A DNA stretch of 64,000 nt from Candidatus Thalassospirochaeta sargassi (GTDB taxonomy: Bacteria > Spirochaetota > Spirochaetia > UBA9216): the NCBI GenBank assembly GCA_028532855.1, contig JAQQAL010000011.1, positions 248,001 through 312,000 on the forward strand, given 5' to 3'. Positions 2,173-45,698 of the stretch are shown here, one piece after another. The position numbers and the translations under genes were made by a program. Every line of letters starts with the position of its first letter. Position 1 is the first letter of the stretch. The notes under the pieces were generated by a model that saw nothing but the letters and a program-made list of their open reading frames with translations, was not told the origin of the DNA and made no database searches.

Positions 2173-3922
2173 AATTGTAAAGAGCTTTGACCCTGCCGTA
2201 ATGCGACGCCTCGTCGGCTATCTTAAGCCCTACAGGATTCAAACCCTTATTGCCTCAGCAGCCCTGCTCCTGCTGATTGCATCCGAGCTGCTGGTTCCTG
2301 TGATAATTCAGCACGCTGTTGATAATCATATCATGACGGAGATTGTTTCAATCGACGGGCTCAGGCGCGACAGCCTGATTCTGCTGCTCCTTCTTGTAGG
2401 CGGGCTTGCTGCATCCTTTGTGCAGGTATACCTGATGTCGGTAGCTGGGCAGGGCATAATGAAAAATCTCCGCGTACAGCTGCTTGAGCACACGGCCGGA
2501 CAGTCTCTGGCCTTTCTCGGCAGCTGTCCGGTAGGCAGTCTTGTCACCAGAATAACCAATGATGTTGAGACAATCAGCGAATTGTTTTCTTCAGTGATCA
2601 TGACGCTTATAAAGAATTTTCTGGTAATGATCGGTGTAATAGGTGTTCTGTTTGTTCTCAATGTTCGCCTGGGGACCGTTGCTGTAATCACTCTTCCTCC
2701 CGTTATTATTATAACGCTTATCTTCCGGAAAAGAGCCCGTAATGCCTACAGGAGGGTCCGGGAGAAAATATCCGCCGTAAACTCGTTTCTGTCGGAGCGT
2801 GTCTCCGGTATGAAGGTTGTGAAGATTTTTGCCCGCGAGACAGAGGTAAACAGGCTGTTTGGAAAGCGAAACGGCGAGCTGCTTGCAGCCGACTTTTCAG
2901 AGATGTATGTTTTTGCGGTGTTCAGGCCGCTGATAAGCTTCATGAGTACGTTTTCGCTCGCCGCCGTCATTTACTTCGGCGCGGGGCTTAATTCCCGCGG
3001 AGCGGTAAGCCTTGGGGTGCTTATTGCGTTCCTTGATCTTGTGCGGAAGTTTTTCCGGCCGCTGCAGCAGATTTCGGAGCAGTTCACCGTTATGCAATCC
3101 GCAATTGCAGGCGGTGAGAGGATTTTTGATCTCCTTGATACCGAAGACCGTATTCCCGACTGCGGCGGAGAATGCCGGGATCTTGATATTGCAGACGGGG
3201 TTTCGCTGAGTTTTGAGGATGTGAAGTTTTCCTACAAGGAAGGTGATCCGGTTCTTAGAGGCGTAAGCTTCGAGGCTGCCGCAGGTGAGACTGTGGCTAT
3301 TGCGGGCTACACCGGTTCGGGTAAATCCACAATAGCAAACCTTGCGGCCCGTTTCTGGGATGCTGACGAGGGGCGGATACTTATTTCGGGAATTGAATCC
3401 CGCAATCTGCCCCTGCAGCTTCTGCGGCGAACCGTACAGGCCGTACAGCAGGATGTTTTTCTTTTTTCAGGGAGTATACGTGAAAATATTGCCCTCGGCA
3501 GGGAATTTACTGACCAGCAGCTGCTTTCTGCGGCAGAAACCTCTATGCTCAGACCTGTACTCGATAATATTGACGGTGGCCTGGATTATCAGCTGACCGA
3601 GGGCGGAACAAACCTCTCCGGCGGACAGCGCCAGCTCATAGCCTTTACAAGGGTTATTGCCCATGATCCGCCGGTGCTTATTCTTGATGAGGCTACCGCG
3701 AGTATTGATACCGAGACTGAAAAACTGATCCAGGCGGGTCTGAAAAACCTTCTGGAAAACAGGACTGCGATAGTAATCGCCCACCGCCTTTCCACCATAC
3801 GCGATGCCGATCGTATTCTCGTTCTGAGTTCAGGGAAGATAATAGAAAGCGGGACCCACCGGCAGCTTCTTGATGCCGACGGCTTTTACAGCAACCTGTA
3901 TAATCTGCAATTCGGGCTTTAA
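2159..3922 (+). CDS. ABC transporter, fused permease/ATPase (MdlB-like)
   Basis: Walker A GYTGSGKST, signature LSGGQRQ, Walker B VLILDEATAS; start MNEDKIVKSF overlaps the end of the previous CDS. Confidence 0.92.
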   Translation: MNEDKIVKSFDPAVMRRLVGYLKPYRIQTLIASAALLLLIASELLVPVIIQHAVDNHIMTEIVSIDGLRRDSLILLLLLVGGLAASFVQVYLMSVAGQGIMKNLRVQLLEHTAGQSLAFLGSCPVGSLVTRITNDVETISELFSSVIMTLIKNFLVMIGVIGVLFVLNVRLGTVAVITLPPVIIITLIFRKRARNAYRRVREKISAVNSFLSERVSGMKVVKIFARETEVNRLFGKRNGELLAADFSEMYVFAVFRPLISFMSTFSLAAVIYFGAGLNSRGAVSLGVLIAFLDLVRKFFRPLQQISEQFTVMQSAIAGGERIFDLLDTEDRIPDCGGECRDLDIADGVSLSFEDVKFSYKEGDPVLRGVSFEAAAGETVAIAGYTGSGKSTIANLAARFWDADEGRILISGIESRNLPLQLLRRTVQAVQQDVFLFSGSIRENIALGREFTDQQLLSAAETSMLRPVLDNIDGGLDYQLTEGGTNLSGGQRQLIAFTRVIAHDPPVLILDEATASIDTETEKLIQAGLKNLLENRTAIVIAHRLSTIRDADRILVLSSGKIIESGTHRQLLDADGFYSNLYNLQFGL

Positions 3923-4617
3923 ACTTTTCCTGTCTCAGGCTGTCGCAGAACTGCTACGTAGCTTATCTCATTTTCAGAATTATATATTGGAACCCAGCGG
4001 GTTCTTATGCCCTTCTTGACGGTTTCGACGGGACGGTGTTTTTTCTCCAGTTTTGAAAGAATTGTACTTATTTCATAACCGTCCGAAAACATAGCATGTT
4101 TTTTGTCTACTATTGCTGATCTGACGGTGTTCTCACTTTCCAGCCAGCCGCGGCTTGCATGAATTACGCATCCGGTTACGTCAATAATCAGTATTGCTTC
4201 CCCGATGTTCTGGCATAACAGTTCGGCCGTCTGTGACAGGGCGCTTATCTTCCGGCCGCGTTTTTCGCTGACTTCGTCAATCTGCCGGTATAGCTCGTGA
4301 AGCCTGCTGCCCGTTTCGCCGAGTCTCAGAAGCCCCTGCTTCGTCGATGCCGGATTCAGCCGGTTCTGTTTGATCAATTTTTCAAGGTCCTTTTTAATAT
4401 TCCGGCTTCTGAGTAGAACAATCCCGAAGGCGGCGGCGGTTATGCAGGTTAAAATTATTCCCGCAAAGAGAATTTTCTCGGCCTGGAAGCGCAGTGATTC
4501 GGTATCCGGCTGCCCGGGCGCAGTCATTAGCATATAGGCCGAAATTGCAACTGAAAACACCGCCGCAGCTGATATTATAAGCAGTAAAACAGCAACCGAT
4601 CTCCGTATTAAAAGCAT
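3919..4617 (-). CDS. Membrane-anchored PAS-like sensory protein
   Basis: Two N-terminal hydrophobic segments and a C-terminal PAS-like segment (GEAILIIDVTGCVIHASRGWL); adjacent to Ktr genes. Confidence 0.55.
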   Translation of the reverse strand: MLLIRRSVAVLLLIISAAAVFSVAISAYMLMTAPGQPDTESLRFQAEKILFAGIILTCITAAAFGIVLLRSRNIKKDLEKLIKQNRLNPASTKQGLLRLGETGSRLHELYRQIDEVSEKRGRKISALSQTAELLCQNIGEAILIIDVTGCVIHASRGWLESENTVRSAIVDKKHAMFSDGYEISTILSKLEKKHRPVETVKKGIRTRWVPIYNSENEISYVAVLRQPETGKV

Positions 4618-4619
4618 TC

Positions 4620-5309
4620 TCAGATCCCCTTCAGCTGTTCAATATCATCGTTGCGCCCTATTACCACAAGAATATCCCCATGCTCAAAGACGGTCTCTGC
4701 ATCAGGGAAGACAACATGTTCGTGTGATACGGGGTTGCCTTCTTCGTCGACTGAGATGCTCTCACGTTTAATAGCGGAGATATTCAGTTTCATTTTACCT
4801 GGAAGATCAACCTCGGCTGCGCTCTGTCCTTCAAAGCCGGCGGGCAGAAAAATTTCTGCAATGCTTATTTCCATGGTTATGGGGACGCTGTCGAGAATAT
4901 CGGGCGACAGAATTTTCTCGGCAAGCTGCCGTCCTGCGTTTTTCTCGATGTCAAGGATGCTGTTTGCGCCTACCTGTTTCAAAACCCTGTGGTGAAGCTC
5001 TGTGGCCGCACGGGCGATGATATAGGGTACTCCTGCCTTTTTCAGAAGGGCGGTTGTAAGAATGTTCGCCTCAATATTGTCGCCGATGGCAATGACGGCC
5101 ATATCTACATCATCCATAGGCAGGCTGGAAAGCTGCAGTTCGTCTGTAGAGTCCAGAAGAACCGCCTGAGCCACCTGATCCTTTATTTTTTCGATTAAAT
5201 CGGCCCTGTTGTCTACTGCTATAACCCTGGCTCCCCTTGCTGAGAGTTCGAGGCAGGTCTCCATTCCGAATGTGCCGAGACCTAATACAAGAAATACGCT
5301 GTCGTTCAT
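4620..5309 (-). CDS. ktrA: K+ uptake regulatory protein, TrkA/KtrA family (RCK_N + RCK_C)
   Basis: Rossmann GLGTFGMETCLELSARGARVIAVD, TrkA_C-like C-terminus; single RCK unit. Confidence 0.9.
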   Translation of the reverse strand: MNDSVFLVLGLGTFGMETCLELSARGARVIAVDNRADLIEKIKDQVAQAVLLDSTDELQLSSLPMDDVDMAVIAIGDNIEANILTTALLKKAGVPYIIARAATELHHRVLKQVGANSILDIEKNAGRQLAEKILSPDILDSVPITMEISIAEIFLPAGFEGQSAAEVDLPGKMKLNISAIKRESISVDEEGNPVSHEHVVFPDAETVFEHGDILVVIGRNDDIEQLKGI

Positions 5310-5313
5310 ATAA

Positions 5314-7050
5314 TCATCCTATTAAAATATCACCCTGGGGATACCTGACCCCGGATTCGCTTCTGCCGGAGAATGTCGACAGAATAGTCAGCGGACCGAG
5401 ACGGCCGTTGAACATCAGAAAAATTATTACCACCTTACCGAAGCTGTTCAATTTTGCAGTCATTCCGGTTGAAAGCCCAACGGTTCCGAAGGCGGAGACC
5501 GCTTCAAACAGTATATCACGCAGCGGGGCGTTGTGGGTAAGGGCGAGGGCTGTCGAGCCTGCTAAAACAGCGGTGACACCATAGAAAAAAACTGCAAAGG
5601 CACGTAAAACCCTGCGCTCGGAGAGCTGGTGTCTGTAAAGGGTAACCCTTGGTGAGTTCAGGGCTATGCATTTGAGATATGCCGCTATGACGGCTGTTGT
5701 ATTTATCTTTATTCCGCCGGCAGTACTGCCTGATGCTGCGCCTATGAACATGAAAAAGCACATTATCAGGATGGTTCCTGTTGAAAATCCTGAGAAGCCT
5801 ATTGAATTGAATCCGGCGGTCCTTAAGGTAACCGATTGGAAAAAGGCTGCAATATACTGTGTCGGAGTGGAATAACTGCGAAGGCTGCCGCCGTGTTCAG
5901 ATGCATAGAAAAAGAAAAATCCGAGCAGAAGCAGTACTGCGGTCCAGCTTAGTACTATGCGGGTATTTATATTGAGTTTTCTCACCTTAGAGGATGGGTT
6001 GAAAAAGGCCGCCAGGTTGAATATGACCGCGAAACTCAAGCCGCCGAGGATGATTAATGCGCTTACGGTAAATATAATCAGCGGCCGGGATACAAAGCCT
6101 TCAAGGCTGTCGGAAAACAGTGAAAATCCGGCGTTACAGAAAGCTGAAATAGAATGGAACACAGCATTAAAAATTGTTCTGCCGCTGAAGCCTGATTCAC
6201 GGCCGAAACCTGTAAACAGCAGCAGTGCACCAGCGGCTTCTATCGAAAATGTAAGATAAATAATCTTTTTCAGGGTTGTTGTTATTCCAGATATATCTGT
6301 GTCGCTGATTACGAATGACAGTCTCTGCTTTTCTGCCAGTGTAGCCTTGCGGCGGAGGATGAACATGGAAAAATACGTCATTATCATTATACCCAGACCG
6401 CCTGTCTGTATAAGGGCAAGAATGATGATTTTACCTGTCAGGCTGAAGACCGCGGCGGTATCAACTACAATAAGTCCGGTTACGCATACGGCTGAGGTTG
6501 CAGTAAACCAGGCGTCCAGGAAGCGAAGACCCCTGCCGTCGGCTGTGGCCGGAGGAAGCATCAGCAGCAGGGTTCCAATGGTTATAATCGCCATAAAACT
6601 GGAGATTATTGATAGCGCCGGACGATCATTGAGCCTGTGCAGTGCCTGCTCAAGTGATTTTACCTCTTCAAACATGCGGTAAAGCAGAAAGAGGCTTCGT
6701 AATACCTTTGCAACCAGGCTGAAGTATCTGCTGCCGTCGCCGGGGGTGCTGATGAAGTCGGCAGTAATCATGTAGCCCAGGATTATAAGATAAACTGAAG
6801 CGAAGATTATCAGGGGGATGTTCCGGAGAAAAAACTGCCGCTTGTAATCAGCGGTTCTAAGGCCTCTGATTATTTCCACGGTTATTATTGCCAGAATAAG
6901 CAGATCAATTATTCTCATGATTAAAGTCGGTATTGCAGCGGAAGCGGAATTAAAGACCAGAGTAAGTATGCTCAGAAAAAATGTAATGATTAAGATGCTG
7001 TTTTTTTTCATCAGTTGATAAACTATAGCCTGAATATTCCTGCGCGGCAA
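5314..7050 (-). CDS. ktrB: K+ uptake membrane subunit, TrkH/KtrB family
   Basis: Polytopic protein with TAVCVTGL, CNAGFS, TAGFN and STAGGIK selectivity-filter-like segments; paired with TrkA-family gene. Confidence 0.9.
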   Translation of the reverse strand: MPRRNIQAIVYQLMKKNSILIITFFLSILTLVFNSASAAIPTLIMRIIDLLILAIITVEIIRGLRTADYKRQFFLRNIPLIIFASVYLIILGYMITADFISTPGDGSRYFSLVAKVLRSLFLLYRMFEEVKSLEQALHRLNDRPALSIISSFMAIITIGTLLLMLPPATADGRGLRFLDAWFTATSAVCVTGLIVVDTAAVFSLTGKIIILALIQTGGLGIMIMTYFSMFILRRKATLAEKQRLSFVISDTDISGITTTLKKIIYLTFSIEAAGALLLFTGFGRESGFSGRTIFNAVFHSISAFCNAGFSLFSDSLEGFVSRPLIIFTVSALIILGGLSFAVIFNLAAFFNPSSKVRKLNINTRIVLSWTAVLLLLGFFFFYASEHGGSLRSYSTPTQYIAAFFQSVTLRTAGFNSIGFSGFSTGTILIMCFFMFIGAASGSTAGGIKINTTAVIAAYLKCIALNSPRVTLYRHQLSERRVLRAFAVFFYGVTAVLAGSTALALTHNAPLRDILFEAVSAFGTVGLSTGMTAKLNSFGKVVIIFLMFNGRLGPLTILSTFSGRSESGVRYPQGDILIG

Positions 7051-7711: not shown

Positions 7712-8195
7712 AGCCCGGAAAATCCTCTTCGGAGTCCAGAATCCAGTCGGTGTTGCTGATTCCCGGGAAGAACGTGTCTCCCTCAAAATCACCGGGAATC
7801 CTCGAAAGATAGAGTTTCGATGCCCCCCTGATTGCCTGGGCGTATATGCTTGCGCCGCCGGCGATGAATATTTCTTTTTCAGGCTGACGGCCGGCTGTTT
7901 CTATGGCGGCTTCAATTGAAGGAACCGCTATAAGATTATTAGAGCTGTTTGCACGACTGAATTCCCGATGCGCAGATGTAACAACAATTGTGGTTCTTCC
8001 GGGGAGAGGGCGGCCGATTGATTCAAAGGTCTTTCTCCCCATTATAATAAAATTATCAAGGGTAAGGCGTTTAAACAGTTTAAGATCTTCAGGTACATGC
8101 CACGGCATGCGGTTATCTTTGCCTATTACGAGATTATCCGAAACGGCGGCGATAAGACTGTAGTTGCTCAATTTTTTTCCTCTCCATACAGGCAC
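7683..8195 (-). CDS. folA: Dihydrofolate reductase (exact start uncertain)
   Basis: SLIAAVSDNLVIGKDNRMPWHVPEDLKLFKRLT, IIMGRKTFESIGRPLPGR. Confidence 0.93.
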   Translation of the reverse strand: MPVWRGKKLSNYSLIAAVSDNLVIGKDNRMPWHVPEDLKLFKRLTLDNFIIMGRKTFESIGRPLPGRTTIVVTSAHREFSRANSSNNLIAVPSIEAAIETAGRQPEKEIFIAGGASIYAQAIRGASKLYLSRIPGDFEGDTFFPGISNTDWILDSEEDFPGFRLEIYRKK

Positions 8196-9430
8196 ACCCT
8201 GTTTCTGCCGTTTTCTTTTGCATAATAAAGAGCCTGATCCGACTCCTGGGTGAGATCAGCTGATGTATTGTGGTCGGAATCAAATCTTGCAATACCGAAG
8301 CTTGCTGTAAACTGTGGTACCCCGTCTTCCATGGATTCAGATTCGTTTTCTATTCTGGCTCTGATTCTTTCGGCAACAATCTTTGCCTGCTGAGAATTGG
8401 TTTCAGGCAGTATTATGCCGAATTCTTCTCCTCCGAGCCTGCCTGCGGAGTCGGTTTCTCTGAGGCTCGTTTTTACGATCTCAGCAAATCTTATAAGTGC
8501 TTTGTCGCCTGCGTCATGTCCAAAGCTGTCGTTTACTGCTTTGAAGTGATCAATATCGATCATGATAAATGTAAGTTTTTCGCCGTATCTGCTTGCGCGG
8601 GCCCGTTCCTGATCAAGCACTTCTATGAACTTGCGTCGGTTTAGCAGCCCGGTCAGCGGGTCGGTAAATGCAAGCGTATGAAGTTTTTCCTTCGCGTTTT
8701 TCAGCTGAAGATGGGTATTAACTCTGGCAAGCAGTTCGGGGCTGTTGAAGGGTTTTACGACATAATCAATACCGCCGTAAATGAAGCTTTCAATTATTGT
8801 TTTTTCATCCTTTTTCGCGCTTAGAAAAATAACGGGAATATCGATGAAATCCTTATTACTCTGAATTTTTGCACAGGTATCAAATCCGCTCATTCCCGGC
8901 ATAACAATATCCAGAAGGATTAGATCCGGGGTATGCTCGGTAAGCAGATCGAGGGCTGAATCTCCGCTGTTGGCTGATATTGTCCTGAAGCCTGATTTCT
9001 GCAGAATCTTTTCCAGAAAAACAACGTTTTCTATCATATCATCAACGATCATTATCAGGGCTTCGGCTGAGTTATCAAGGCTGTCCTTTGATTTAAGGTC
9101 GGTGCTGCCGTGACTTAAGGCTGCCGAAGTTGTTCTGGAAACCTTGAGGTTCATTTTAATCGCCAGCGCAATTTCTTCAATGATGGCCAGCAGTGTTTCT
9201 CCGCCTGACTTTATAGCCCCGAGAAATTTGGTTTTTTCAGGATCCGTTTCAGTCTGAAGCAGAAGATCTGAAAAACCCATGATTGCATTCAGGGGGGAAC
9301 GCAGATCATGGTTTACCTTAACGCGAATTGCTTCAATGTTGCGCTTACACCGGCTGTTTCTTACCGCGAGTATAATTAAGACCGTCAGCGAAGCAAGCAG
9401 AGCCGCTGACAACAAGAGGATTATAATCAT
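8168..9430 (-). CDS. TM-HisKA(no HATPase)-REC-GGDEF diguanylate cyclase
   Basis: H-box VNHDLRSPLNAIMGFSDLLL; REC DLILLDIVMPGMSG; RLGGEEF (GGDEF variant). Confidence 0.88.
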   Translation of the reverse strand: MIIILLLSAALLASLTVLIILAVRNSRCKRNIEAIRVKVNHDLRSPLNAIMGFSDLLLQTETDPEKTKFLGAIKSGGETLLAIIEEIALAIKMNLKVSRTTSAALSHGSTDLKSKDSLDNSAEALIMIVDDMIENVVFLEKILQKSGFRTISANSGDSALDLLTEHTPDLILLDIVMPGMSGFDTCAKIQSNKDFIDIPVIFLSAKKDEKTIIESFIYGGIDYVVKPFNSPELLARVNTHLQLKNAKEKLHTLAFTDPLTGLLNRRKFIEVLDQERARASRYGEKLTFIMIDIDHFKAVNDSFGHDAGDKALIRFAEIVKTSLRETDSAGRLGGEEFGIILPETNSQQAKIVAERIRARIENESESMEDGVPQFTASFGIARFDSDHNTSADLTQESDQALYYAKENGRNRVCLYGEEKN

Positions 9431-10290
9431 ATTGCAACCGGAAATTTTATAAATGGCTGGGGGTTATATCCCTCAAGCTTAATATCTTCAAAGCTCATTT
9501 CAAGCATCGGTTTGTCGGCAATAACCAGCCGGGGCCTTTCTGTGGGTGTTCGTTTAAGCTGTTCTTTCAGACCGTCAATATGATCAACGTAAACATGCGC
9601 ATCTATGAGGGTGTGGGCAAACTCACCGACCTCAAAACCGGTCTCCTTTGCCAGCAGATAGGTCAGAAGGCTGTAACAGGCGATATTGAAGGGAACTCCC
9701 AGGGCAATATCCGCTGAACGCTGGGTCAGGTGACAGTTCAGCTTGTTCCCGGTCACGTTGAAGCAGAATGTATAATGGCACGGAGGGAGCTTGCTTTCGG
9801 CCGCATTTCCCGGATGCCAGGCCGATACTATCATTCTTCGGAGGTTTGGTGTTTCAGGGTTAACCTTTATTTCCTTCAGGGTATCAATAATATACTGAAT
9901 TTGATCAAAGACTCTGGTTCCGGATTTTTCGTCTCTGCTAATCCATTTTGTACCCCAGTTCTCTCCCGGAAGTCCTTCCTCAGGGACCGGAAAGCGTCTC
10001 CAGAATCTTCCATATGCTGTTTCGAGGCGGCCCTCTTGGTCAGCCCATGCGTCCCATATCTTTGTGTGTTTTCTCAATTCTCTGATATGTTCGTCTCCCG
10101 AAAGATACCAGAACAGTTCATAAAGCATTGAATTAAAAAATACTTTTTTTGTGGTTAGAAGGGGATAGCCTTCTGCAAGATTGATCCTGTAAAAATACGC
10201 GAAGCAGCTGAGCGTGTCAGTACCGGTGCGGTTCTTCTTTAGAACTCCGTTTTCCAGGACATAGTCTACAAGTTCCAGATATTCTTTCAA
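9427..10290 (-). CDS. thyA: Thymidylate synthase
   Basis: RTGTDTLSCF, LPPCHYTFCFNV, QRSADIALGVPFNIACYSLLTYL. Confidence 0.97.
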   Translation of the reverse strand: MKEYLELVDYVLENGVLKKNRTGTDTLSCFAYFYRINLAEGYPLLTTKKVFFNSMLYELFWYLSGDEHIRELRKHTKIWDAWADQEGRLETAYGRFWRRFPVPEEGLPGENWGTKWISRDEKSGTRVFDQIQYIIDTLKEIKVNPETPNLRRMIVSAWHPGNAAESKLPPCHYTFCFNVTGNKLNCHLTQRSADIALGVPFNIACYSLLTYLLAKETGFEVGEFAHTLIDAHVYVDHIDGLKEQLKRTPTERPRLVIADKPMLEMSFEDIKLEGYNPQPFIKFPVAI

Positions 10291-10383: not shown

Positions 10384-12372
10384 TCAGCCCTGATACTTTT
10401 TTAAAAGTGCTTCAGTATCGATAAGGGTCACCGAGTAAAGAGGTTTTCCCTGGTATACCGGATCGTATCGGTATACAGGAATCTCTTCAGTGTTCCGCTG
10501 ATAAAAGGGGCTTGCTTCAGTGTTTATCAGGAAGTCGAGCAGGGACACCAGCATAAGGCTGTATCGCAGAAGATTTTCGTTTGTCGGTGCAATGTTATCC
10601 TTCGCCAGAATTTTACCTAAGCGGTAACTCGTAATATTTTTAATCTCGAAATGAAAGGGTTCGCTGTAATTGCTTATCAGCTTCTGTCTTTCTTTACTGT
10701 TGTCGAATTCTTCCATCAGGGCCTTGAGTGTCCGATAGAAATTAGAAACCTGTTCATGGAATTTGGGCGCTTTCAGCGGTATTGTCTCGGATTTGTACAG
10801 GATTTTAAATTTCATGAAGGGCAGAATGAACTTGCGTTTAAACCAGTAGATATCTGTCAGCAGTTTCTGACCGAATTTGCTTGTTGAATAGTCCACTCCC
10901 TTTTCGATATTCCTGCAATATTCTATCAACAGCTTGTTATAGTTTTTCTGAATCATCTCATCGATGAAAAGATGCCATTTATCCGTTGTTTTCTCTATTT
11001 CTTTCTTGTGATCCGAAACGATGGATATACTCCGAAACCCGTAAAGCAGATCCTGAATAATTGAAGCAAGAACCACTACCTGCTGCAGCGGATCTTCAGC
11101 TGGTATCAGTTCGGTTCCTTTCGGGAATTTAAACAAGGGATGAAAATACGGATAGTAGTCGGGGAACTCGTTCTGTCTGCTCCAGCCTGATTCAGGGAAT
11201 ATCCGTTCAAGAAGAACCAGGGCGTTTGATATCTCTTTTTCGTCCCGCTTCAGTTCTTCTCTTTTCATCTTTTTCAGCTGCTCTTCCCGCTCTTTCTCAA
11301 GCTTCTGCTTAAGGTGGTTTAGCGAATACTGTTTTTTTCCCAGCTCCTGTAGATTTTCCGGCGGAATAACAAGGCTGTCTTCATCAATCTTAAGGTAATT
11401 GAGAATGAGATCACGCTTTCTGTTCATAAACTCACGATAATAATGAAATCTGGTCCCAGTAAGTTTCAGCAGAAGAGGGTAGCAGGTAAATGCAATATCT
11501 TTAAGCACGATCTTAATCTTTTCTTTCACATCGAGATATCTGTTTTTTATGTTCACCAGCTCTTCAGGGTCTTCACTGTAAAGAAGCTGAAGGACTTTAT
11601 ACAGCCTGTCGACTGCAGCGTAGATATGTTTTATATCGACCTGCGATAATGAGATAATCGGTTCATAAATCAGGAAACACAGCCTCCCGCAGTCTCGAAT
11701 TTCCCTGTTTCTAGGTGATTTTTGAAGATCTGATAAAATGCTGCTCATCTCCTTGAGATCCCAGCTGATCAGAATCTTCAGGATATCACGATAATATGGA
11801 TTTATGTAAAGCTTGAATGTGCCGGGGTTAAGCTGTTTTAGAAGTGATTTGAGCTTTGTTTCCAGGTTTTCTATGTGACTGTAGTAAAAGGTATCGCCTT
11901 CAAGTATGAAATCGGGGTTAACCTTATCTTTGCGCTTGATAAGGAAGCTGAAATAGGCTGAAAAGAGGTCTGATCTGCTTTTTACCCTGTGCTCAGGGCG
12001 GGCGGCCATCCTGTCAATTTTAATGCGATCGAAATATCCCGGTTTTGTCTTAGCCGTTTTTTTTCTGTTGTAGTGACCGGTATATGCATCAGAATGCGGT
12101 TTCTGTTTTTTTTCAGAAGAGGCTGCTGCCGATGGTTCACCCGCCTTGCGGGAGCCTCCTCCTGAGCCCTTACCGGAGGGTCGGTGAGAGGACGTGACCT
12201 TTTTAAGATGATCATATTTCTGTTTAAGGGCCTCATCAGTTTTTTCAAAACCCACCTCACCGCCCAGGATGGATGCCATTCTGTCGGCTTCTTCTTTTGA
12301 GAGTTCCCCGAGATTATTTCTTGTACGGTCCAGATCACCCGGGTTGTATATTTCAGGCCGGCTCTTTGCCAT
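10384..12372 (-). CDS. Large conserved-looking protein of unknown function
   Basis: Long ORF (about 660 aa), charged coiled-coil centre; likely start MAKSRPEIYNPGDL at 12372; no recognisable domain. Confidence 0.75.
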   Translation of the reverse strand: MAKSRPEIYNPGDLDRTRNNLGELSKEEADRMASILGGEVGFEKTDEALKQKYDHLKKVTSSHRPSGKGSGGGSRKAGEPSAAASSEKKQKPHSDAYTGHYNRKKTAKTKPGYFDRIKIDRMAARPEHRVKSRSDLFSAYFSFLIKRKDKVNPDFILEGDTFYYSHIENLETKLKSLLKQLNPGTFKLYINPYYRDILKILISWDLKEMSSILSDLQKSPRNREIRDCGRLCFLIYEPIISLSQVDIKHIYAAVDRLYKVLQLLYSEDPEELVNIKNRYLDVKEKIKIVLKDIAFTCYPLLLKLTGTRFHYYREFMNRKRDLILNYLKIDEDSLVIPPENLQELGKKQYSLNHLKQKLEKEREEQLKKMKREELKRDEKEISNALVLLERIFPESGWSRQNEFPDYYPYFHPLFKFPKGTELIPAEDPLQQVVVLASIIQDLLYGFRSISIVSDHKKEIEKTTDKWHLFIDEMIQKNYNKLLIEYCRNIEKGVDYSTSKFGQKLLTDIYWFKRKFILPFMKFKILYKSETIPLKAPKFHEQVSNFYRTLKALMEEFDNSKERQKLISNYSEPFHFEIKNITSYRLGKILAKDNIAPTNENLLRYSLMLVSLLDFLINTEASPFYQRNTEEIPVYRYDPVYQGKPLYSVTLIDTEALLKKYQG

Positions 12373-12436
12373 ATCTGTACTTCCCCATATCAATATCGGC
12401 GGGTATCATTCTTAAGTTTAGTACTTTTTAAAAAAA

Positions 12437-12464
12437 AATCCCGCTTTTTATTAAAGGCGGGATT
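12437..12464 (-). terminator. Intrinsic terminator of trxB
   Basis: AATCCCGC-loop-GCGGGATT followed on the minus strand by a run of T. Confidence 0.8.
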
Positions 12465-12483
12465 CAAGTCGGGATTTTTGATC

Positions 12484-13425
12484 CTACAACGGATTTTCGT
12501 TCATGTATTTTTCAGCCTCAAGTGCCGCCATACATCCCGTGCCGGCCGATGTAATTGCCTGTCTGTAGGTTTTGTCCTGTACATCACCTGCTGCAAAAAC
12601 TCCAGCTACCGAGGTTTTTGTTGTTCCCTTCTCGGTAATGATGTAGCCGTCGCTATCCATTTCAAGCTGGCCGTTCAAAAAGCCCGTATTTGGATTGTGT
12701 CCGATTGCGTAGAACAGACCCTTTGCCTCGTGATCGAATTCCTTACCTGTTTTAACGTCCTTCAGCACAACATGGGTGAGAGCACTGTCACCCTTAACGT
12801 CGATCAGGGTTGTACTCCAGAGTACTTCAATCTTCGGGTTTGCAAGAACCCTGTCCTGCATTGCTTTGCTTGCACGCAGTTCGTCACGGCGATGAACAAT
12901 ATATACTTTTGAGCCGAATTTTGAGAGGTGCATTGCTTCTTCCATTGCTGAGTCTCCCCCGCCGATTACAACAAGCGGCTGATCGCGGAAGACTGGAAGA
13001 GCGCCGTCACAGACTGCACAGGCAGAGATTCCGCGCTGCCAGAAGTCGTCTTCATGTGGAACCCGCATCCTCCTCGCAATCGCACCGGTTGCGACAATAA
13101 CGGTTTCAGCTTCAACCTCACCCTCGGAGGTTTTTACTGTGAAGGGTCGTTTAGACATGTCTACCGATTCTACTGTTTCGGTCAGTACCTCGACCCCGGC
13201 GTTGACCGACTGGGCTCTCATCATCATGGTCAGCTCTGTTCCGCCTACACCTTCGGGAAATCCCGGGAAATTCTCAACTGTTCCGGTTGTGGTCAGCTGT
13301 CCGCCCGGGGCTATTCCCCCTGCCATCCAGCCTTCATATAATAGGGGTTCAAGACCCGCACGTGCCGCATAAATTCCGGCTGTATGTCCGGCGGGGCCGG
13401 ATCCGATAATTACTACCTTCTTCAT
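12484..13425 (-). CDS. trxB: Thioredoxin reductase
   Basis: [16 protein letters not shown], redox CAVC motif, [20 protein letters not shown]. Confidence 0.96.
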
Positions 13426-13569
13426 TTTCTGGTCTCCTGTATTTCTAATAAGGTGAATTTAACACAAAACATTTCAAATATGAAGGAAAAAACCTTCTAT
13501 TTGGTGTTAGAATATAATTGCTTTTATTTAATATAATAATAAAAACCATATATAGCAAAATAATTTTTT

Positions 13570-13597
13570 GTTACTTTTGAGGGGGCCCTCCGTAGTA
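13570..13597 (+). promoter_or_regulatory. Candidate ECF-type promoter immediately upstream of the sigma gene
   Basis: GTTACT (13570-13575), 15-nt spacer, CGTA (13591-13594), then ATG at 13602. Confidence 0.4.
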
Positions 13598-13601
13598 TTC
13601 A

Positions 13602-14204
13602 ATGATGAACATGGAAAGAAACGGAAAAGAGACTGATTATGATGCCTCAAAACTTGCGCCGGCTGCGGCAGGCGGAGACAGCGCCGCCTTCGGAAAGCTG
13701 TATGAGCTGTACTTCGACAGGATTTACCGATACCTCTATTATCGCACCCTCCATAGAGAAACAGCGGAAGATCTCTGTTCGAAAACCTTTCTGAAGGCTC
13801 TCGACAAGCTATCGGGATTCAAGCCTTCTAAGGGATCGTTTGGAAGCTGGATATACCGAATAGCATTAAACAGTCTGATCGATCACTACAGGGCCTCATC
13901 GAAGATAGAATTTCACTCCGGAGTTTGGGATCACCCTTCGGATGGGGATCATGTGATGGATGTGCACAACAAGCTGTACTGGGAAAAGCTTAAACCCGCG
14001 TTGGAAGAACTTCCGTCTGAAAAAAGAGAACTTATTATTCTGAGGGTTTGGGATGATCTTAGTTTTCGGGAAATTGCCGAGCTGACGGGAAAGAGCGAAG
14101 CCGCCTGCAAGATGTCGTTCAGCAGAACATTAAAGTTCCTGAAAGATTCCGTACCATTTTCCGTTCTGATGATGTTTATCGCCTTTAAAACAACTGTAAT
14201 ATGA
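13602..14204 (+). CDS. ECF-type RNA polymerase sigma factor
   Basis: Sigma70 region 2 (DRIYRYLYYRTLHRETAEDLCSKTFLKAL) and region 4 (LPSEKRELIILRVWDDLSFREIAELTGKSEAACKMSFSR). Confidence 0.93.
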   Translation: MMNMERNGKETDYDASKLAPAAAGGDSAAFGKLYELYFDRIYRYLYYRTLHRETAEDLCSKTFLKALDKLSGFKPSKGSFGSWIYRIALNSLIDHYRASSKIEFHSGVWDHPSDGDHVMDVHNKLYWEKLKPALEELPSEKRELIILRVWDDLSFREIAELTGKSEAACKMSFSRTLKFLKDSVPFSVLMMFIAFKTTVI

Positions 14205-25187: not shown

Positions 25188-26471
25188 TCAGGTCAGTTCT
25201 TTTGATATTGTTATTGCTGCTATCGTTCCATCTGAAACAGCGGTAGTTATCTGACGGTACTGCTTTGTGCGCACATCGCCGGCAGCAAAAACACCCGGAA
25301 TGTTAGTTTCCATTGTTTCGTCTGTTTCCAGATATCCCCACTGATCAAGTTCGAGGTTATCATGAAATACCTCTAGATTGGGAATGAAACCTACAAAAAC
25401 GAAAACACCATTTGTTCTGATTTCCGATTTCTCTCCGGTTTTAAGGTTTTCAACAACTACGGCCATGTCCATATTTCCGTATTTTTTGAATTCTCTCGGC
25501 TCATGCTCGAACATGATGTTGACCTTTTCATCGGCAAATATCTTTTTCTGGGCCACTTTGTTAGCCTGAAGGGTCTCAAACTGATGAATTATTGTTATCT
25601 TCTTTGCAAATTTTGAGAGAAACAATGATTCTTCGATTGATGAATTTCCGCCGCCGATAACTACAATCTCTTTATCTTCAAAGTATTTGCCATCGCAGGT
25701 TGCGCAGTAGCTGATTCCCTGACCTGCAAATTCCTTCTCACCAGGAATATTCAGTGGGCGGGGTCTTGAGCCGGTGGCAATTACAATTTTTTTGGCTTCG
25801 ATAGTTTCAAATCCGTCCACAACAAGGCTCTTGCTGTTCAGGTCTACCTTTGATACCTCGACTGCGGATCTGAACTCAACACCGTTTTCCCTGGCCTGCT
25901 CGCTCATGAAATGACTGAGCATGAATCCCTGCTGGGCTTCGATAAAACCCGGGTAGTTTGATACCTGGTGGGTTGTTGCAACATAACCACCGGGAAGCGC
26001 AGTATCGACGACTATTGTGTTCAGATGTGCCTGGGCAAGGTAAATACCTGCTGTCAAACCGGCAGGGCCTCCGCCTAATACGACTACATCTGTGTTCGTA
26101 ACGACAGGTTCTATCTTCCCATGCAGTTCTGCAGCCTTGTCGGCTGGAAGCATTGCATCAAGACCTTCCATTAGTTCTGAGCGGAGTATTCCTCCGGTCA
26201 GTGTTTTACCTGTCCGTTCACCGTTCTGGTAAAAGAGAACTGTCGGCGACCCGCTGACATCCAGCTGCGCGGCAAGGTCTCTGTTGCCCTGTCTGAATAT
26301 TTTAACGAAACTGATGTCGTCGCCGTATATATTGCTCAGGCTTTCATACTTAGCAGCAAGCGCCTCACAGGGCGGACATTCAGTTGAATAAAAGTCTACT
26401 ACGACTTTATCTTTTGCGAGTACTTCTTTTTCAAAATCAGCAGCCTGTATTTCCTTAATCTTTCCAGCCAT
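25188..26471 (-). CDS. Thioredoxin-thioredoxin reductase fusion
   Basis: N-terminal VVVDFYSTECPPCEALAAKYESL (CPPC) followed by FAD/NAD reductase with GGGPAGLTAGIYLAQA, CATC and [10 protein letters not shown]. Confidence 0.93.
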   Translation of the reverse strand: MAGKIKEIQAADFEKEVLAKDKVVVDFYSTECPPCEALAAKYESLSNIYGDDISFVKIFRQGNRDLAAQLDVSGSPTVLFYQNGERTGKTLTGGILRSELMEGLDAMLPADKAAELHGKIEPVVTNTDVVVLGGGPAGLTAGIYLAQAHLNTIVVDTALPGGYVATTHQVSNYPGFIEAQQGFMLSHFMSEQARENGVEFRSAVEVSKVDLNSKSLVVDGFETIEAKKIVIATGSRPRPLNIPGEKEFAGQGISYCATCDGKYFEDKEIVVIGGGNSSIEESLFLSKFAKKITIIHQFETLQANKVAQKKIFADEKVNIMFEHEPREFKKYGNMDMAVVVENLKTGEKSEIRTNGVFVFVGFIPNLEVFHDNLELDQWGYLETDETMETNIPGVFAAGDVRTKQYRQITTAVSDGTIAAITISKELT

Positions 26472-26472
26472 C

Positions 26473-27786
26473 TTAGTTCTCCTTGAAATATAGTGAAAGT
26501 CCCAGGGACATCAATCCGGCAACCGGCCTGCAGTCCGGGGAATTGATTTCTCCATTACGATTTTTTGCTGCGGAAGCGCAGCCGCCACCGCAGGCAAGTC
26601 TCAGTTCGCAGTTCCGGCATTCAGGGATAGAGGTAACATCTCTGTCCTGCCATGCCGCAGCTGCATCTTCCTTCAGCGTTTTCTCGGGGTAGAATGTTCC
26701 AAGGCTCTCACCTGGTTTTCCTACCGTTGCTGTACAGGAGAATATCTGTCCGCTGTAGTCAAACGCCCATTCCGTTTTGCAGCCCGGACAGGAATCATAC
26801 AGCGGTTCCGGCATCTCTCCGTTATCAAAGAGAAATCGGGATATCGAGTACGCCGGTCTGTGAAACTCCATTACGACCGGATGTTTCTTTATCAGATCGT
26901 AAAGATCCTCATACATTGATAATCTGTCATAGAGTTTATTTGAGTTCTCCTGACAGTAATGCAGTTCATAATTTCTGCCAAGCTGTGTTTTAAACAATTT
27001 GCTTGCAGTCCAGCCTCTTTCAACCGCGAGTTCAGCAAGTGCCGGCAGATGCGGCATGTTTTCCTTATCCATAACCGCCCGGAGGTTCACGGGAAGGCCG
27101 GCTTCCAGCGCAGCGTCAACGCCGGCTGCTACCTCGCTGAAGGTTCCTTTGCCGCTGTGAAGGGGTCTTCTCTGGTTGTGGATATCCGCAGGACCGTCGA
27201 TGGTTATCTGCAGTTCTCGGACAGAAGCAGTTTTCAGCATCGGAATGTAGCTTTCCAGCGAATAACCGTTGGTTACAAAGGCCAGAGATAAACCGCGCTT
27301 ATTGGCTTCTTCAATGATCAACTCAATCTTGGCTCTTGTTGTCGGGTCGGGCAGCAGGGGTTCCCCGCCGAATACGGTTATATATTTTCGTCGGCCTGCA
27401 AATTCGGAATCTACATATTCGAAAAACGCTTTTATAACCGGTTTATAATCAGACGGTTTTTCGTTTTCATATCCTTCCTGATAGCAATATGTACAGTTGA
27501 AATTACATGTATATGTAGGCACATAAAATATCTGAACCTCATCTTCATCCCGGCTGTCCAGGAAGTCGAGATATCCTGAACGAAAGAGCTTTTCCTCTTC
27601 TTCCGGTATCGACAGATAACCTTTTTCAATCAGCTCCTCTTTATTCGGGGGACTTCCGTCCATGATTGCCCCGGCTGTCTCAGCATCAAGAATGTCCGCG
27701 TTTCTGCTCAGCGGGTTGATTATAAAGTATTCATCCGAATTCTTTATTTGTGAAATTATATTATGTTTAGACAGTCTGTAATCCAT
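26473..27786 (-). CDS. Radical SAM/SPASM peptide-maturase-like protein
   Basis: CNFNCTYCYQ (CxxxCxxC), TVFGGEPLL, SPASM-like CPGC...C...CRNCELRLACGGGC...C; likely start MDYRLSKHN at 27786 with GAGGAA RBS. Confidence 0.93.
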   Translation of the reverse strand: MDYRLSKHNIISQIKNSDEYFIINPLSRNADILDAETAGAIMDGSPPNKEELIEKGYLSIPEEEEKLFRSGYLDFLDSRDEDEVQIFYVPTYTCNFNCTYCYQEGYENEKPSDYKPVIKAFFEYVDSEFAGRRKYITVFGGEPLLPDPTTRAKIELIIEEANKRGLSLAFVTNGYSLESYIPMLKTASVRELQITIDGPADIHNQRRPLHSGKGTFSEVAAGVDAALEAGLPVNLRAVMDKENMPHLPALAELAVERGWTASKLFKTQLGRNYELHYCQENSNKLYDRLSMYEDLYDLIKKHPVVMEFHRPAYSISRFLFDNGEMPEPLYDSCPGCKTEWAFDYSGQIFSCTATVGKPGESLGTFYPEKTLKEDAAAAWQDRDVTSIPECRNCELRLACGGGCASAAKNRNGEINSPDCRPVAGLMSLGLSLYFKEN

Positions 27787-27806
27787 TAATTCCTCTTCTC
27801 CGGGTA

Positions 27807-27840
27807 ATAAAAATCCGGGCCGAAACCTTCTCCGGCCCGG
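27807..27840 (-). terminator. Intrinsic terminator/attenuator between peptide gene and radical SAM gene
   Basis: Minus strand CCGGGCCG-GAGAAGGTTT-CGGCCCGG followed by ATTTTTAT; 8-bp perfect GC-rich stem. Confidence 0.75.
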
Positions 27841-27847
27841 AAATTGT

Positions 27848-27943
27848 TTAGTCGTGACAGCCTGCCACAACCTTGGAAGTCTTGGCGCAGCACTGTGCTA
27901 CAGCCTTATTGCCTTCCGGTTTCTTTTTGATCAGTGATTTCAT
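27848..27943 (-). CDS. Candidate RiPP precursor, 31-aa peptide MKSLIKKKPEGNKAVAQCCAKTSKVVAGCHD
   Basis: Read directly from the minus strand (absent from the ORF track because of size); AGGAG RBS about 11 nt upstream; lies between methyltransferase and radical SAM gene. Confidence 0.75.
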   Translation of the reverse strand: MKSLIKKKPEGNKAVAQCCAKTSKVVAGCHD

Positions 27944-27966
27944 CTTAAAGCATGCTCCTTGATCAT

Positions 27967-28623
27967 TTATTTACAACAGCAACACCCGGCTTTATATCCG
28001 AGTATTGTCCAGCTGCTGACAGTTATTTTCCCCTTGGGGTACGGATCGCTTTCTTCGAGAATTTCAACACTCGTGAACCCCGCATTTTCAAGCTGTTTGA
28101 GATATTCTTCACGTGTTACCGACCCAGCCCAGCACTCTGCGACTGCTTCCGGATCATTTTTGTATTCTTCCGGAACAGGTGCGCTTGAATAGATGTCGCT
28201 GACGACAAATCGGCCTCCGGCCTTAAGAATTCTATGAACCTCATTCCATACATTCTGCTTGTTTTCCGCATGGTTGATAACACAGTTTGATATGACAAGG
28301 TCTACCGTGTTTTCTTCAAGCGGCATATCTTCCAGATCAGTTTTGATAAATTTTATGTTCTCAATTCCCAGTCTTGAGGCTGTTTTTTCAGCCGTCTTGA
28401 GCATTCCGTCGGAAATATCAAGGCCGTAGACCATTCCTTCGCGGCCTACCGACTCGGCCATTCTTATGGCGTCTGTTCCGCGGCCGCTTCCGAGATCTAC
28501 ACAGATCTCATTTTTTCCCGCCTTGGCGTGGTTTACAGCACCTCCGCAAGAAAGACAGCAGCTTGTATCGGCAAGCTCGGAATAACGAATATTAATTGCG
28601 CTTTCGGTTTTAATTTCCGACAT
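27967..28623 (-). CDS. ArsM-like SAM methyltransferase with Cys-rich tail
   Basis: VDLGSGRGTDA SAM motif; SNCVINH and AECWAGSVTREEYLKQLENAGF as in arsenite methyltransferases; N-terminal SCCLSC and C-terminal GCCCCK. Confidence 0.85.
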   Translation of the reverse strand: MSEIKTESAINIRYSELADTSCCLSCGGAVNHAKAGKNEICVDLGSGRGTDAIRMAESVGREGMVYGLDISDGMLKTAEKTASRLGIENIKFIKTDLEDMPLEENTVDLVISNCVINHAENKQNVWNEVHRILKAGGRFVVSDIYSSAPVPEEYKNDPEAVAECWAGSVTREEYLKQLENAGFTSVEILEESDPYPKGKITVSSWTILGYKAGCCCCK

Positions 28624-28636
28624 AAATTCCTCTCTT

Positions 28637-29044
28637 TTACATTTTTTTCAAAAGAATATTCAAACCCTGTTTGACTGTTTCTCTTTCATTTTCTGATAAA
28701 CCGTTGAGCAAATCATTTTCACATTGCTCTTTTTCTCGGTTTATACCTTTAACGCAGTCTTTGCCTTTTTGTGTGAGTCTGAGCTTAACAAGCCTGCGGT
28801 CGGTCTCGTCATGCTTCATAATGATGAAGCCCTTTTCATGAAGTGCAGAAATTACCCTGCTTGCACGGGACGGTGATAGTCCTGCAAGTGTCGACAGATG
28901 TTTCGATGTGATATCAGATTCATTCGCTATAGCTGAAAGAAATGTTATTTCCTTTTCTCTCAGATTCAGCGATTGTCCAATTTCGCTGTCGAATCTGCAT
29001 CTCTGTTTCAGTTCCAGGATTAATTCAATCACAAAATACTCCAA
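28637..29044 (-). CDS. MarR-family transcriptional regulator
   Basis: wHTH LSTLAGLSPSRASRVISALHEKGFIIMKHDETDRRLVKLRLTQKG. Confidence 0.9.
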   Translation of the reverse strand: MEYFVIELILELKQRCRFDSEIGQSLNLREKEITFLSAIANESDITSKHLSTLAGLSPSRASRVISALHEKGFIIMKHDETDRRLVKLRLTQKGKDCVKGINREKEQCENDLLNGLSENERETVKQGLNILLKKM

Positions 29045-29064
29045 AGCCGCCGGAAACAGGTACT

Positions 29065-29095
29065 GTTGCCATGTGCAACTGTTGCGCCCAGCAAC
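29065..29095. promoter_or_regulatory. Tandem palindromic operator GTTGC-N5-GCAAC x2
   Basis: GTTGCCATGTGCAAC t GTTGCGCCCAGCAAC between MarR start and promoter. Confidence 0.75.
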
Positions 29096-29103
29096 TGAAT
29101 CTA

Positions 29104-29132
29104 AATATATACCGGATATGCTATATAGTCAA
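29104..29132 (-). promoter_or_regulatory. Sigma70-type promoter of the MarR-methyltransferase-peptide-rSAM-TrxR operon
   Basis: Minus strand TTGACT-17 nt-TATATT. Confidence 0.7.
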
Positions 29133-43187: not shown

Positions 43188-45698
43188 ATGAAGATACTGA
43201 TAATTGGAGGCGTAGCGGGCGGAGCCAGCGCGGCTGCCAGACTAAGGCGCCTTGATGAAGATGCTGAAATAATAATGTTTGAAAAAGGACCGTATATCTC
43301 CTATGCGAACTGCGGTCTTCCATATTACATAAGCGAAACAATTTCTGAGCGGGATAATCTCCTGCTGCAGACTCCTGAATCATTTAACAATAGATTCAAT
43401 GTTGATGTAAGGGTGCTGAACGAGGTTCTCAAGATTGACCGTGAAGCAAAGAGCGTGACAGTGGTTGAAAAAACCATGTCCGGCGAGATTGTCCGCGAAT
43501 ACACAGAAAACTACGATAAGCTGATCCTTTCACCGGGGTCAACCCCGATGAGACCTCCGATTCCGGGGATAGAACGTGATAATGTACACACCCTCTGGAC
43601 TGTTCCCGATGCGGACAAGATGAAATCATATCTCGACGACGAAGATCCCTGTCATGCAGTAGTTGTCGGCGGGGGCTTTATCGGGCTTGAACTGGCCGAG
43701 AACCTGGTAGAGCGTAATATCCAGGTTACTCTTGTGGAGGCGGCTCCTCAGGTTATGATGCCGCTGGATTTTGAAATGGCTCAGATTGTTCACCGCCATC
43801 TGCATGAAGAGGGCGTTGATTTGCATCTCGGCAGTATGGTTAAGTCTTTTGAAGCCTGTGATGAACCCCGGAAAACAGCTGTTGTAACGGGTGACGGTTT
43901 CAGGATTGAAGCCGACATCATTATGCTTGCCATCGGTGTTCAGCCGCAGACGGCCCTTGCAAAGGACGCCGGACTTGAGCTTAACCAGCGCGGCGGTATC
44001 ATTGTAGACTCTAAAATGACAACCTCAGATCCCGATATTTTTGCAGTTGGCGATGCTGTCGAGGTAAACAACTACATGACTGACATTCCAACCATGATTC
44101 CCCTTGCCGGACCGGCAAACAAACAGGGAAGAATGGCTGCTGCCAATGTGCTCGGAGGAAACGAGGAGTATAAGGGTACAATGGGAACCAGTATCGTAAA
44201 GATTTTTGATATTACAGCCGGATCGACCGGCCTCAATGAAAAGGCGCTGAAGGCTGCCGGAAAGGTTCATGGCAAGGATTACCTGTTTACAATGGGGCAT
44301 TCCAAATCACATGCCGGTTATTATCCCGGGGCATTTCCCCTTGATCTGAAAATGATCTTTGATCCGACAAGCCGCAGGGTGCTGGGCGCACAGGTTGTAG
44401 GATGGGAAGGTGTTGATAAACGAATAGATGTTCTTGCAACGTTGATTAGAATGGGCGGGTCGATCGATGATCTGACTGAACTTGAACTTGCCTATGCTCC
44501 GCCGTATTCTTCAGCGAAGGATCCGGTTAATATGGCCGGCTTTGTAGCTGAAAATATGCTTGAGGGCCTCGTAGAAAATGTCAACTGGAATGAACTTGGC
44601 AATTATCCGGATGCTGTTCTGCTTGATGTGCGTGACCCGGAAGAAAATGAGCTTGGTGAGATACCCGGCTCCATACTGGTTCCGCTGTATGAGCTGCGAA
44701 AACGTCTTGATGAACTTGATAAGGATAAACAGTACATTGTCTACTGTGCAACAGGCATTCGTGCTTACATTGCAGTAAGAATGATGAAGCAGCATGGCTT
44801 CAAGGATGCCAGAAACCTGGCCGGAGGATTCAGTACATGGCAGCCGGCCATGTGGAATAAGGCTGATGCCTGCGGTGTAGCTGATGCGGGGCTTAAAACC
44901 GTTAATCTTGAGGAGGTAGCTGTCAAAATGGCTGATATACATAAAGGGAACGTTGTTATTGTCGATGCATGCGGACTTTCATGTCCAGGTCCAATAAAAA
45001 AGGTTGCAGAAAAAATTGCAGAATTACCGGAGGGGGATGTTCTTGAGGTTCATGTTACGGATCCCGGATTTAAATCGGATATAGCCTCCTGGTGTAAGCG
45101 TACAGGTAATACCCTGCTGAACGTTGAAAAGAAGGATAAAGCCTTTGTTGCAAGGATTCGAAAAGGTGATCTTGAAGCGGCCCTCCATGATCTTGGCGGC
45201 GGACATCAGGTTCAGGCAGCACCAATTGCAAACGACAAGACAATGGTATGTTTCAGCGGTGATCTGGACAAGGCCATAGCCTCTTTTATAATTGCAAACG
45301 GCGCCCTGGCTATGGGCCGTAAGGTTACTATGTTCTTCACATTCTGGGGTTTGAATATCATCAGAAAGACTGAGAAGGTGCCTGTTAAAAAAGATTTTGT
45401 CAGCAAAATGTTCGGGGGAATGATGCCCCGTGGTGCTGATAATCTAAAGCTTTCCCAAATGAACATGGGCGGTGCAGGAGCTGGTATGATTAAGGGGCTC
45501 ATGAAAAAGCATAATGTACCAATGCTTGAAGAGCTGATTCAACAGGCTATTGACGGCGGTGCAAATATTATTGCCTGTACAATGAGTATGGATTTAATGG
45601 GGATAAAGTCTGAAGAGCTGATTGACGGTATTGAGTACGGTGGGGTTGCCGCCTACCTCGATGCTGCTGAAGACGCAAACGTCAACCTGTTTATCTAA
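43188..45698 (+). CDS. CoA-disulfide reductase-like - rhodanese - TusA - DsrE fusion protein
   Basis: GGVAGGASAAARLRRL and SYANCGLPYY; rhodanese YCATGIRAYIA; TusA DACGLSCPGPIKKV; C-terminal DsrE-like domain. Confidence 0.93.
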   Translation: MKILIIGGVAGGASAAARLRRLDEDAEIIMFEKGPYISYANCGLPYYISETISERDNLLLQTPESFNNRFNVDVRVLNEVLKIDREAKSVTVVEKTMSGEIVREYTENYDKLILSPGSTPMRPPIPGIERDNVHTLWTVPDADKMKSYLDDEDPCHAVVVGGGFIGLELAENLVERNIQVTLVEAAPQVMMPLDFEMAQIVHRHLHEEGVDLHLGSMVKSFEACDEPRKTAVVTGDGFRIEADIIMLAIGVQPQTALAKDAGLELNQRGGIIVDSKMTTSDPDIFAVGDAVEVNNYMTDIPTMIPLAGPANKQGRMAAANVLGGNEEYKGTMGTSIVKIFDITAGSTGLNEKALKAAGKVHGKDYLFTMGHSKSHAGYYPGAFPLDLKMIFDPTSRRVLGAQVVGWEGVDKRIDVLATLIRMGGSIDDLTELELAYAPPYSSAKDPVNMAGFVAENMLEGLVENVNWNELGNYPDAVLLDVRDPEENELGEIPGSILVPLYELRKRLDELDKDKQYIVYCATGIRAYIAVRMMKQHGFKDARNLAGGFSTWQPAMWNKADACGVADAGLKTVNLEEVAVKMADIHKGNVVIVDACGLSCPGPIKKVAEKIAELPEGDVLEVHVTDPGFKSDIASWCKRTGNTLLNVEKKDKAFVARIRKGDLEAALHDLGGGHQVQAAPIANDKTMVCFSGDLDKAIASFIIANGALAMGRKVTMFFTFWGLNIIRKTEKVPVKKDFVSKMFGGMMPRGADNLKLSQMNMGGAGAGMIKGLMKKHNVPMLEELIQQAIDGGANIIACTMSMDLMGIKSEELIDGIEYGGVAAYLDAAEDANVNLFI

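Follow-up and report, generated by a model that had tools for sequence, protein, structure and literature searches.

A putative new radical SAM peptide family with ArsM-like methyltransferase and thioredoxin reductase partners in a spirochaete

What would a 31-residue cysteine peptide do between a methyltransferase resembling arsenite methyltransferases and a radical S-adenosylmethionine (SAM) enzyme? The question is raised by an operon of Candidatus Thalassospirochaeta sargassi (assembly GCA_028532855.1), found in positions 248,001 to 312,000 of contig JAQQAL010000011.1, a stretch of 64,000 nucleotides that is called the window here. Five tightly packed co-directional genes occupy 29044-25188 of its minus strand behind one upstream promoter, with intergenic gaps of 13, 23, 61 and 1 nt from the MarR gene to that of the thioredoxin-thioredoxin reductase (Trx-TrxR) fusion. 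An initial annotation had described this arrangement as a candidate operon for a ribosomally synthesized and post-translationally modified peptide (RiPP), and all five open reading frames (ORFs) as well as the promoter were indeed found on that strand. The lspA-like and phosphotransferase-like genes that flank the operon are on the plus strand and outside the unit. The features are:

29132-29104, minus strand: sigma-70-type promoter TTGACT-17-TATATT; TTGACTATAT...TATATATT also precedes the cassette in loci L001 and L002
29066-29094: tandem palindrome TTGC-N5-GCAA-N3-TTGC-N5-GCAA, probable MarR operator directly downstream of the promoter
29044-28637, minus strand: MarR-family regulator with TTG start
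28623-27967, minus strand: ArsM-like class I SAM methyltransferase, 218 residues
27943-27848, minus strand: putative RiPP precursor peptide MKSLIKKKPEGNKAVAQCCAKTSKVVAGCHD, 31 residues, with a conserved 16-residue C-terminal core
27841-27814, minus strand: terminator-like hairpin (12 bp and T tail) between precursor and maturase
27786-26473, minus strand: radical SAM/SPASM peptide maturase, 437 residues, with N-terminal domain resembling a RiPP recognition element (RRE), CxxxCxxC and the full SPASM Cys set
26471-25188, minus strand: thioredoxin (CPPC)-thioredoxin reductase (CATC) fusion, 427 residues

The distribution of these genes suggests that four of them form a cassette which very probably represents a new radical SAM RiPP family. 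The radical SAM and peptide genes were sought with hidden Markov models in 394 genomes of the window's phylum, taken as Spirochaetota, where the nearest named relatives are Spirochaeta sp. and Spirochaetales. Each gene was detected in 38 genomes, and 37 genomes were common to both. The two mismatching genomes, G062 and G185, have their radical SAM gene at a contig end, and only G185 has the peptide without a radical SAM gene. Methyltransferase, peptide and radical SAM gene follow each other in the same order in four Spirochaetales relatives; Trx-TrxR comes next in three of these, and the contig of the other (L001) stops within the radical SAM gene. With a radical SAM score of at least 500 bits, the cassette was also found in 18 of 348 genomes from the same phylum as Tissierella sp. 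P1 (Bacillota), and in none of 247 Desulfobacterota-type and 141 Chloroflexota-type genomes. One of 139 genomes from the Marinifilum phylum carries it on a 2.7-kb contig that is possibly misbinned. Clustering of the neighbourhoods of about 55 cassettes identified only methyltransferase, peptide, radical SAM and Trx-TrxR genes as constant, the last on either side of the cassette, upstream or downstream. Four members of the proposed five-gene combination stand, with the methyltransferase and Trx-TrxR genes next to the peptide in nearly every locus, whereas MarR accompanies a subset of cassettes and is absent from many relatives. Pairwise protein distances are correlated among the radical SAM enzyme, the methyltransferase and Trx-TrxR over 42 loci (r = 0.87, 0.87 and 0.79), which indicates that the three evolve together.

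The small ORF has the properties of a RiPP precursor. Compared with L001 its nonsynonymous and synonymous divergence are 0.028 (dN) and 0.383 (dS), and by this measure it is under purifying selection. All 61 collected precursors keep the C-terminal pattern AQCC[AST]Kx[STA]xxxxGCH[DN], and this 16-residue core is nearly invariant. The leader varies from 14 to about 36 residues and frequently contains a second CC. A short encoded precursor with variable leader and conserved core is therefore kept next to its presumed modifying enzyme across relatives, as in radical SAM RiPPs, and the expectation that a conserved small Cys ORF recurs beside homologous radical SAM genes was borne out. A chance ORF is ruled out by this conservation together with the co-occurrence with the radical SAM gene. 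No model in Pfam or NCBIfam matches the precursor. A counterpart of the hairpin that separates precursor and maturase is present in 20 of 57 loci; it would leave the precursor mRNA more abundant than that of the maturase, as expected if precursor must outnumber enzyme. The precursor of genome G690 (L187) ends in GCHN and is the only one without the HD ending. A gene for selenophosphate synthetase (selD, L187:7910-8821) ends about 450 bases ahead of its start. A selenocysteine (UGA) version of this peptide was considered and ruled out, as the ORF is an ordinary Cys precursor that continues without interruption to GCHN.

The enzyme next to the precursor is well defined. The radical SAM motif C94xxxC98xxC101 and the SPASM cysteines (C333-x12-G-x4-C351, C390-x2-C393-x5-C399-x3-C403 and C419) are invariant in 22 members, so the SPASM-like Cys cluster noticed initially is the complete seven-Cys set. 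An AlphaFold model (mean predicted local distance difference test, pLDDT, 91) places a three-strand, three-helix RRE-like domain at the N-terminus with high confidence, and by this fold the maturase has a predicted RiPP recognition element. The best solved match over about the full length is CteB, followed by SuiB, anSME and ChlB. CteB (5why, 5wgg) likewise combines radical SAM and SPASM domains with an N-terminal RRE-like domain and an adjoining Cys precursor. However, CteB, which makes a thioether bond of the sactipeptide or ranthipeptide kind (Cys to C-alpha, C-beta or C-gamma) on a SCIFF peptide, is 17% identical to the cassette maturase; SCIFF precursors have six Cys in forty-five whereas the cassette precursor has three core Cys, and the ArsM-like and Trx-TrxR partners further set the cassette apart from these systems. 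Membership in the curated maturase families tested is ruled out by scores below the NCBIfam cut-offs, both for SCIFF (TIGR03974, 67 versus 425 bits) and PapB (NF047865, 99 versus 340) and for TIGR04463 (rSAM_vs_C_rich) and CefB (NF038107). The latter two give the highest NCBIfam scores both for the window enzyme and for two other family members, but no score exceeds 146 bits, with cut-offs of 525 and 600; they too are maturases of Cys-rich peptides, with a different precursor family. Mycofactocin and pyrroloquinoline quinone (PQQ) are intracellular RiPPs whose synthesis relies on a SPASM enzyme and which have redox partners. In both, the RRE is a separate PqqD-type protein and the chemistry involves Tyr/Val or Glu/Tyr, whereas the cassette has a Cys core and Trx-TrxR.

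Judged by the features that sequences and models can test, the cassette conforms to a radical SAM RiPP, and the reading as a RiPP operon is strongly supported by the conserved peptide, the 37 shared genomes, the invariant core and the predicted RRE-like domain. No description of the gene combination was found in the open literature (subscription journals and preprints were outside the search) and none of the curated maturase families tested fits, in agreement with the initial remark that it was not recognized as a named system. An anti-phage system was rejected, as only generic methyltransferase, viperin and helix-turn-helix matches were found in an anti-phage library. The family, absent from Pfam and NCBIfam, has a near-invariant core in at least two phyla, and this suggests a common function that is probably housekeeping-like rather than warfare. 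Many carriers are anaerobic spirochaetes and clostridia. RiPP chemistry would be joined to metalloid metabolism, and the cassette could bear on arsenic methylation by anaerobes, if arsenic is the substrate of the ArsM-type partner.

What the matured peptide does may be approached through its partners. The best PDB sequence matches of the methyltransferase are arsenite methyltransferases, and the 13 best structural matches of its model are all ArsM or AS3MT. In a 26-member alignment the only invariant cysteines are Cys26, Cys114 and Cys164, which align with Cys72, Cys174 and Cys224 of CmArsM (4fs8, 4fsd), the ligands of trivalent arsenic, As(III). CmArsM loses the ability to methylate inorganic As(III) when these ligands are mutated (PMC3877260). 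The cassette enzyme thus has the ArsM/AS3MT fold together with the complete As(III)-binding Cys triad, but it lacks the ArsM C-terminal region and is always beside a RiPP precursor. A search of the window's own genome found no second ArsM. An ArsM-like methyltransferase of anaerobes is also present in DVU_1556-type clusters (NF045667), for which the cassette enzyme scores 89 bits against a cut-off of 155.

The Trx half of the fusion has CPPC in the window and most relatives, and the TrxR half has CATC. The HRRxxxR motif of NADPH-dependent TrxR is replaced by HQFxxLQAN or a close variant in nearly all members, and the score of 320.7 is below the cut-off of 343.45 for that class. Since a housekeeping TrxR in the same window (12484-13425) retains the motif as HRRDELR, the fusion appears to be a second, dedicated enzyme, perhaps with a different electron donor.

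The regulator offers another indication of thiol chemistry. Each of seven aligned cassette MarR sequences, six of them distinct, has one conserved Cys in its first helix and one in its C-terminal helix. The analogy with two-Cys OhrR regulators, taken as a lead only, suggests that the cassette MarR could be a thiol-reactive sensor. The tandem palindrome occurs once in the 64 kb and not at all in 100 shuffles; among 203 loci it precedes the cassette in L001, L002 and G330 (L103) and occurs nowhere else.

In view of the above, we tentatively favour, at slightly less than even confidence, a system in which an intracellular crosslinked thiol peptide works with the ArsM-type enzyme and Trx-TrxR on a thiophilic substrate. 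The RRE-like domain of the maturase would bind the short basic leader of the precursor, after which the enzyme would introduce at least one crosslink into the core, leaving one or more thiols free. This crosslink is probably a thioether. The dedicated Trx-TrxR fusion would hold the peptide, the methyltransferase or both in the reduced state, a role that we consider a little better than an even bet. The peptide would be a partner or ligand of the ArsM-type methyltransferase, which would act on a thiol-held thiophilic substrate, with trivalent arsenic or a comparable metalloid as the most likely candidate; this part, an intracellular thiol peptide serving an ArsM-type enzyme on such a substrate, is plausible but falls below even confidence. 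In the window's lineage the two-Cys MarR repressor would sense thiol or metalloid stress through the tandem palindromic operator. More specifically, the matured peptide might be a ribosomally made three-Cys ligand, crosslinked by the radical SAM enzyme, from which the compact ArsM would receive As(III) or another soft metalloid and which the dedicated Trx-TrxR would regenerate; such an encoded stand-in for glutathione when anaerobes methylate arsenic is doubtful.

The initial annotation had likewise placed the function in thiol redox or metalloid handling rather than with bacteriocins. Support for this is indirect and comes from the As-site Cys triad, the ArsM structural matches, the CPPC-type Trx-TrxR, the two-Cys MarR, the lack of a recurrent exporter or protease family around the cassettes and an arsenic locus in genome G011 (L118, G011:C75:1-18000) that encloses the cassette:

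507-1565: ArsP_1 permease
2352-3089: CcdA-like
3664-4053: ArsR
4861-5916: ACR3 (437 bits)
5895-6440: Trx-type ArsC-like reductase
6370-6666: broken TrxR fragment
after the ArsC-like gene: radical SAM, ArsM-like, CcdA, Trx-like lipoprotein, ArsR
10401-10499, opposite strand: peptide
12434-13726: intact Trx-TrxR

The best NCBIfam match of this ArsP_1 permease is SaoE. In the Sao systems vicinal Cys near the C-terminus (Cys-Cys-COOH) have a suspected metal or metalloid role (PMC13188914), but these consist of transporters and a CC- or CU-ending protein, whereas the cassette encodes a radical SAM RiPP.

Several observations weigh against a role in arsenic metabolism. G011 is the only one of about 56 loci in which arsenic genes clearly adjoin the cassette; linked ArsR, ACR3 and ArsC were not found outside it, and in other genomes ACR3 is elsewhere. 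An ACR3 above cut-off is present in 23 of 36 cassette genomes and 80 of 211 others (p 0.006), an enrichment that is modest and weak as evidence because lineage was not controlled, and several cassette genomes have no ACR3. The regulator in the window is a MarR, not an ArsR. The methyltransferase itself scores 192 bits against the cut-off of 263 for arsenite methyltransferase (NF008823), and an invariant Asn-His follows its SNC motif where ArsM has Asn-Leu. Because of these two differences and its length the enzyme is called ArsM-like here and not ArsM.

The next best explanation is that the methyltransferase is a RiPP tailoring enzyme, acting for example on a Cys thiol or the C-terminal carboxylate of the crosslinked peptide, while Trx-TrxR only keeps the precursor thiols reduced for the maturase. 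The product could then serve as a redox cofactor, as mycofactocin and PQQ do. In most loci the methyltransferase gene immediately precedes that of the precursor, most cassettes have no adjoining arsenic genes and the methyltransferase evolves in step with the maturase, all of which would agree with this. Yet a peptide methyltransferase would have no need of an invariant Cys triad that coincides with the As(III) ligands of CmArsM, and only ArsM enzymes are found among the closest structures of the cassette enzyme. We consider tailoring unlikely on balance.

A general thiol/disulfide stress system would account for the CPPC Trx fused to a dedicated TrxR throughout, for CcdA/DsbD-type genes near four cassettes, for the conserved MarR cysteines and for Cys-rich DUF5714 and DUF1847 proteins near some cassettes. 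The peptide would be a small redox shuttle (a mini-thioredoxin) from Trx-TrxR to targets, and the ArsM-like protein would detoxify thiol-binding Sb, Bi, Se, Te, Hg or an organic electrophile instead of arsenic. By itself this leaves the invariant three-Cys As site unexplained and the ACR3 enrichment, though weak, favours arsenic, which makes such a system quite improbable.

SPASM maturases with Cys peptides often give sactipeptides or ranthipeptides with established roles as bacteriocins or signals, but an exported RiPP of this kind is very improbable here. The initial statement that no exporter or protease lies in the operon extends to the family: neither an exporter nor a protease/peptidase family recurs near the approximately 55 cassettes, and no recurrent cluster of dedicated exporter, protease or immunity genes was found. 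The core, unlike that of bacteriocins, is near-invariant across phyla, and the ArsM-like and Trx-TrxR partners are constant. That the small ORF is not the substrate of the maturase and its neighbours are coincidental can be dismissed almost entirely, as the two genes match in 37 genomes with mismatches at contig ends only and adjacency across phyla, the invariant core, the RRE-like domain and the precursor-type attenuator all argue against it.

Other genes occur around the cassette in some lineages. DUF5714 (PF18978) was found in 14 neighbourhoods, mostly adjoining the cassette: L125, L126, L129, L131 and ten loci of the Tissierella phylum, including L164, L184 and L186. This Cys-rich protein is a candidate fifth component. 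DVU_1556-type clusters are presumably paired with DUF5714 proteins as well, which we take only as a lead. DUF1847 (PF08901) is present in five cassette neighbourhoods and stands at the cassette start or end in L103:2030-2599, L105:8031-8579, L173:7851-8756 and L003:8665-9219. In L170-L172 the ArsM-like gene is preceded by genes for a stand-alone Trx and for an additional methyltransferase that lacks the As-site cysteines.

Lower-scoring related radical SAM genes reach 250 bits in Tissierella sp. P1 (L149), 208 in Desulfobacterota and at most 242 in Chloroflexota. The L149 gene, which was set aside, has a neighbour peptide of another kind and encodes a different, uncharacterized radical SAM/SPASM maturase (8392-9738) adjoined by an ORF (7975-8088) for a peptide ending MGMGNQWCCAC, with an aminotransferase class V gene nearby. 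Another Tissierella sp. P1 locus (L150) resembles a further RiPP cluster in its gene content: a pair of radical SAM maturases and an ABC transporter occur there with repeated lipoprotein genes and two related Cys peptides (MKSLNDIIWNEDIDLEEEK...). In the window itself, 43188-45698 holds a further thiol/sulfur module, a fusion of CoA-disulfide reductase, rhodanese, TusA and DsrE-like protein.

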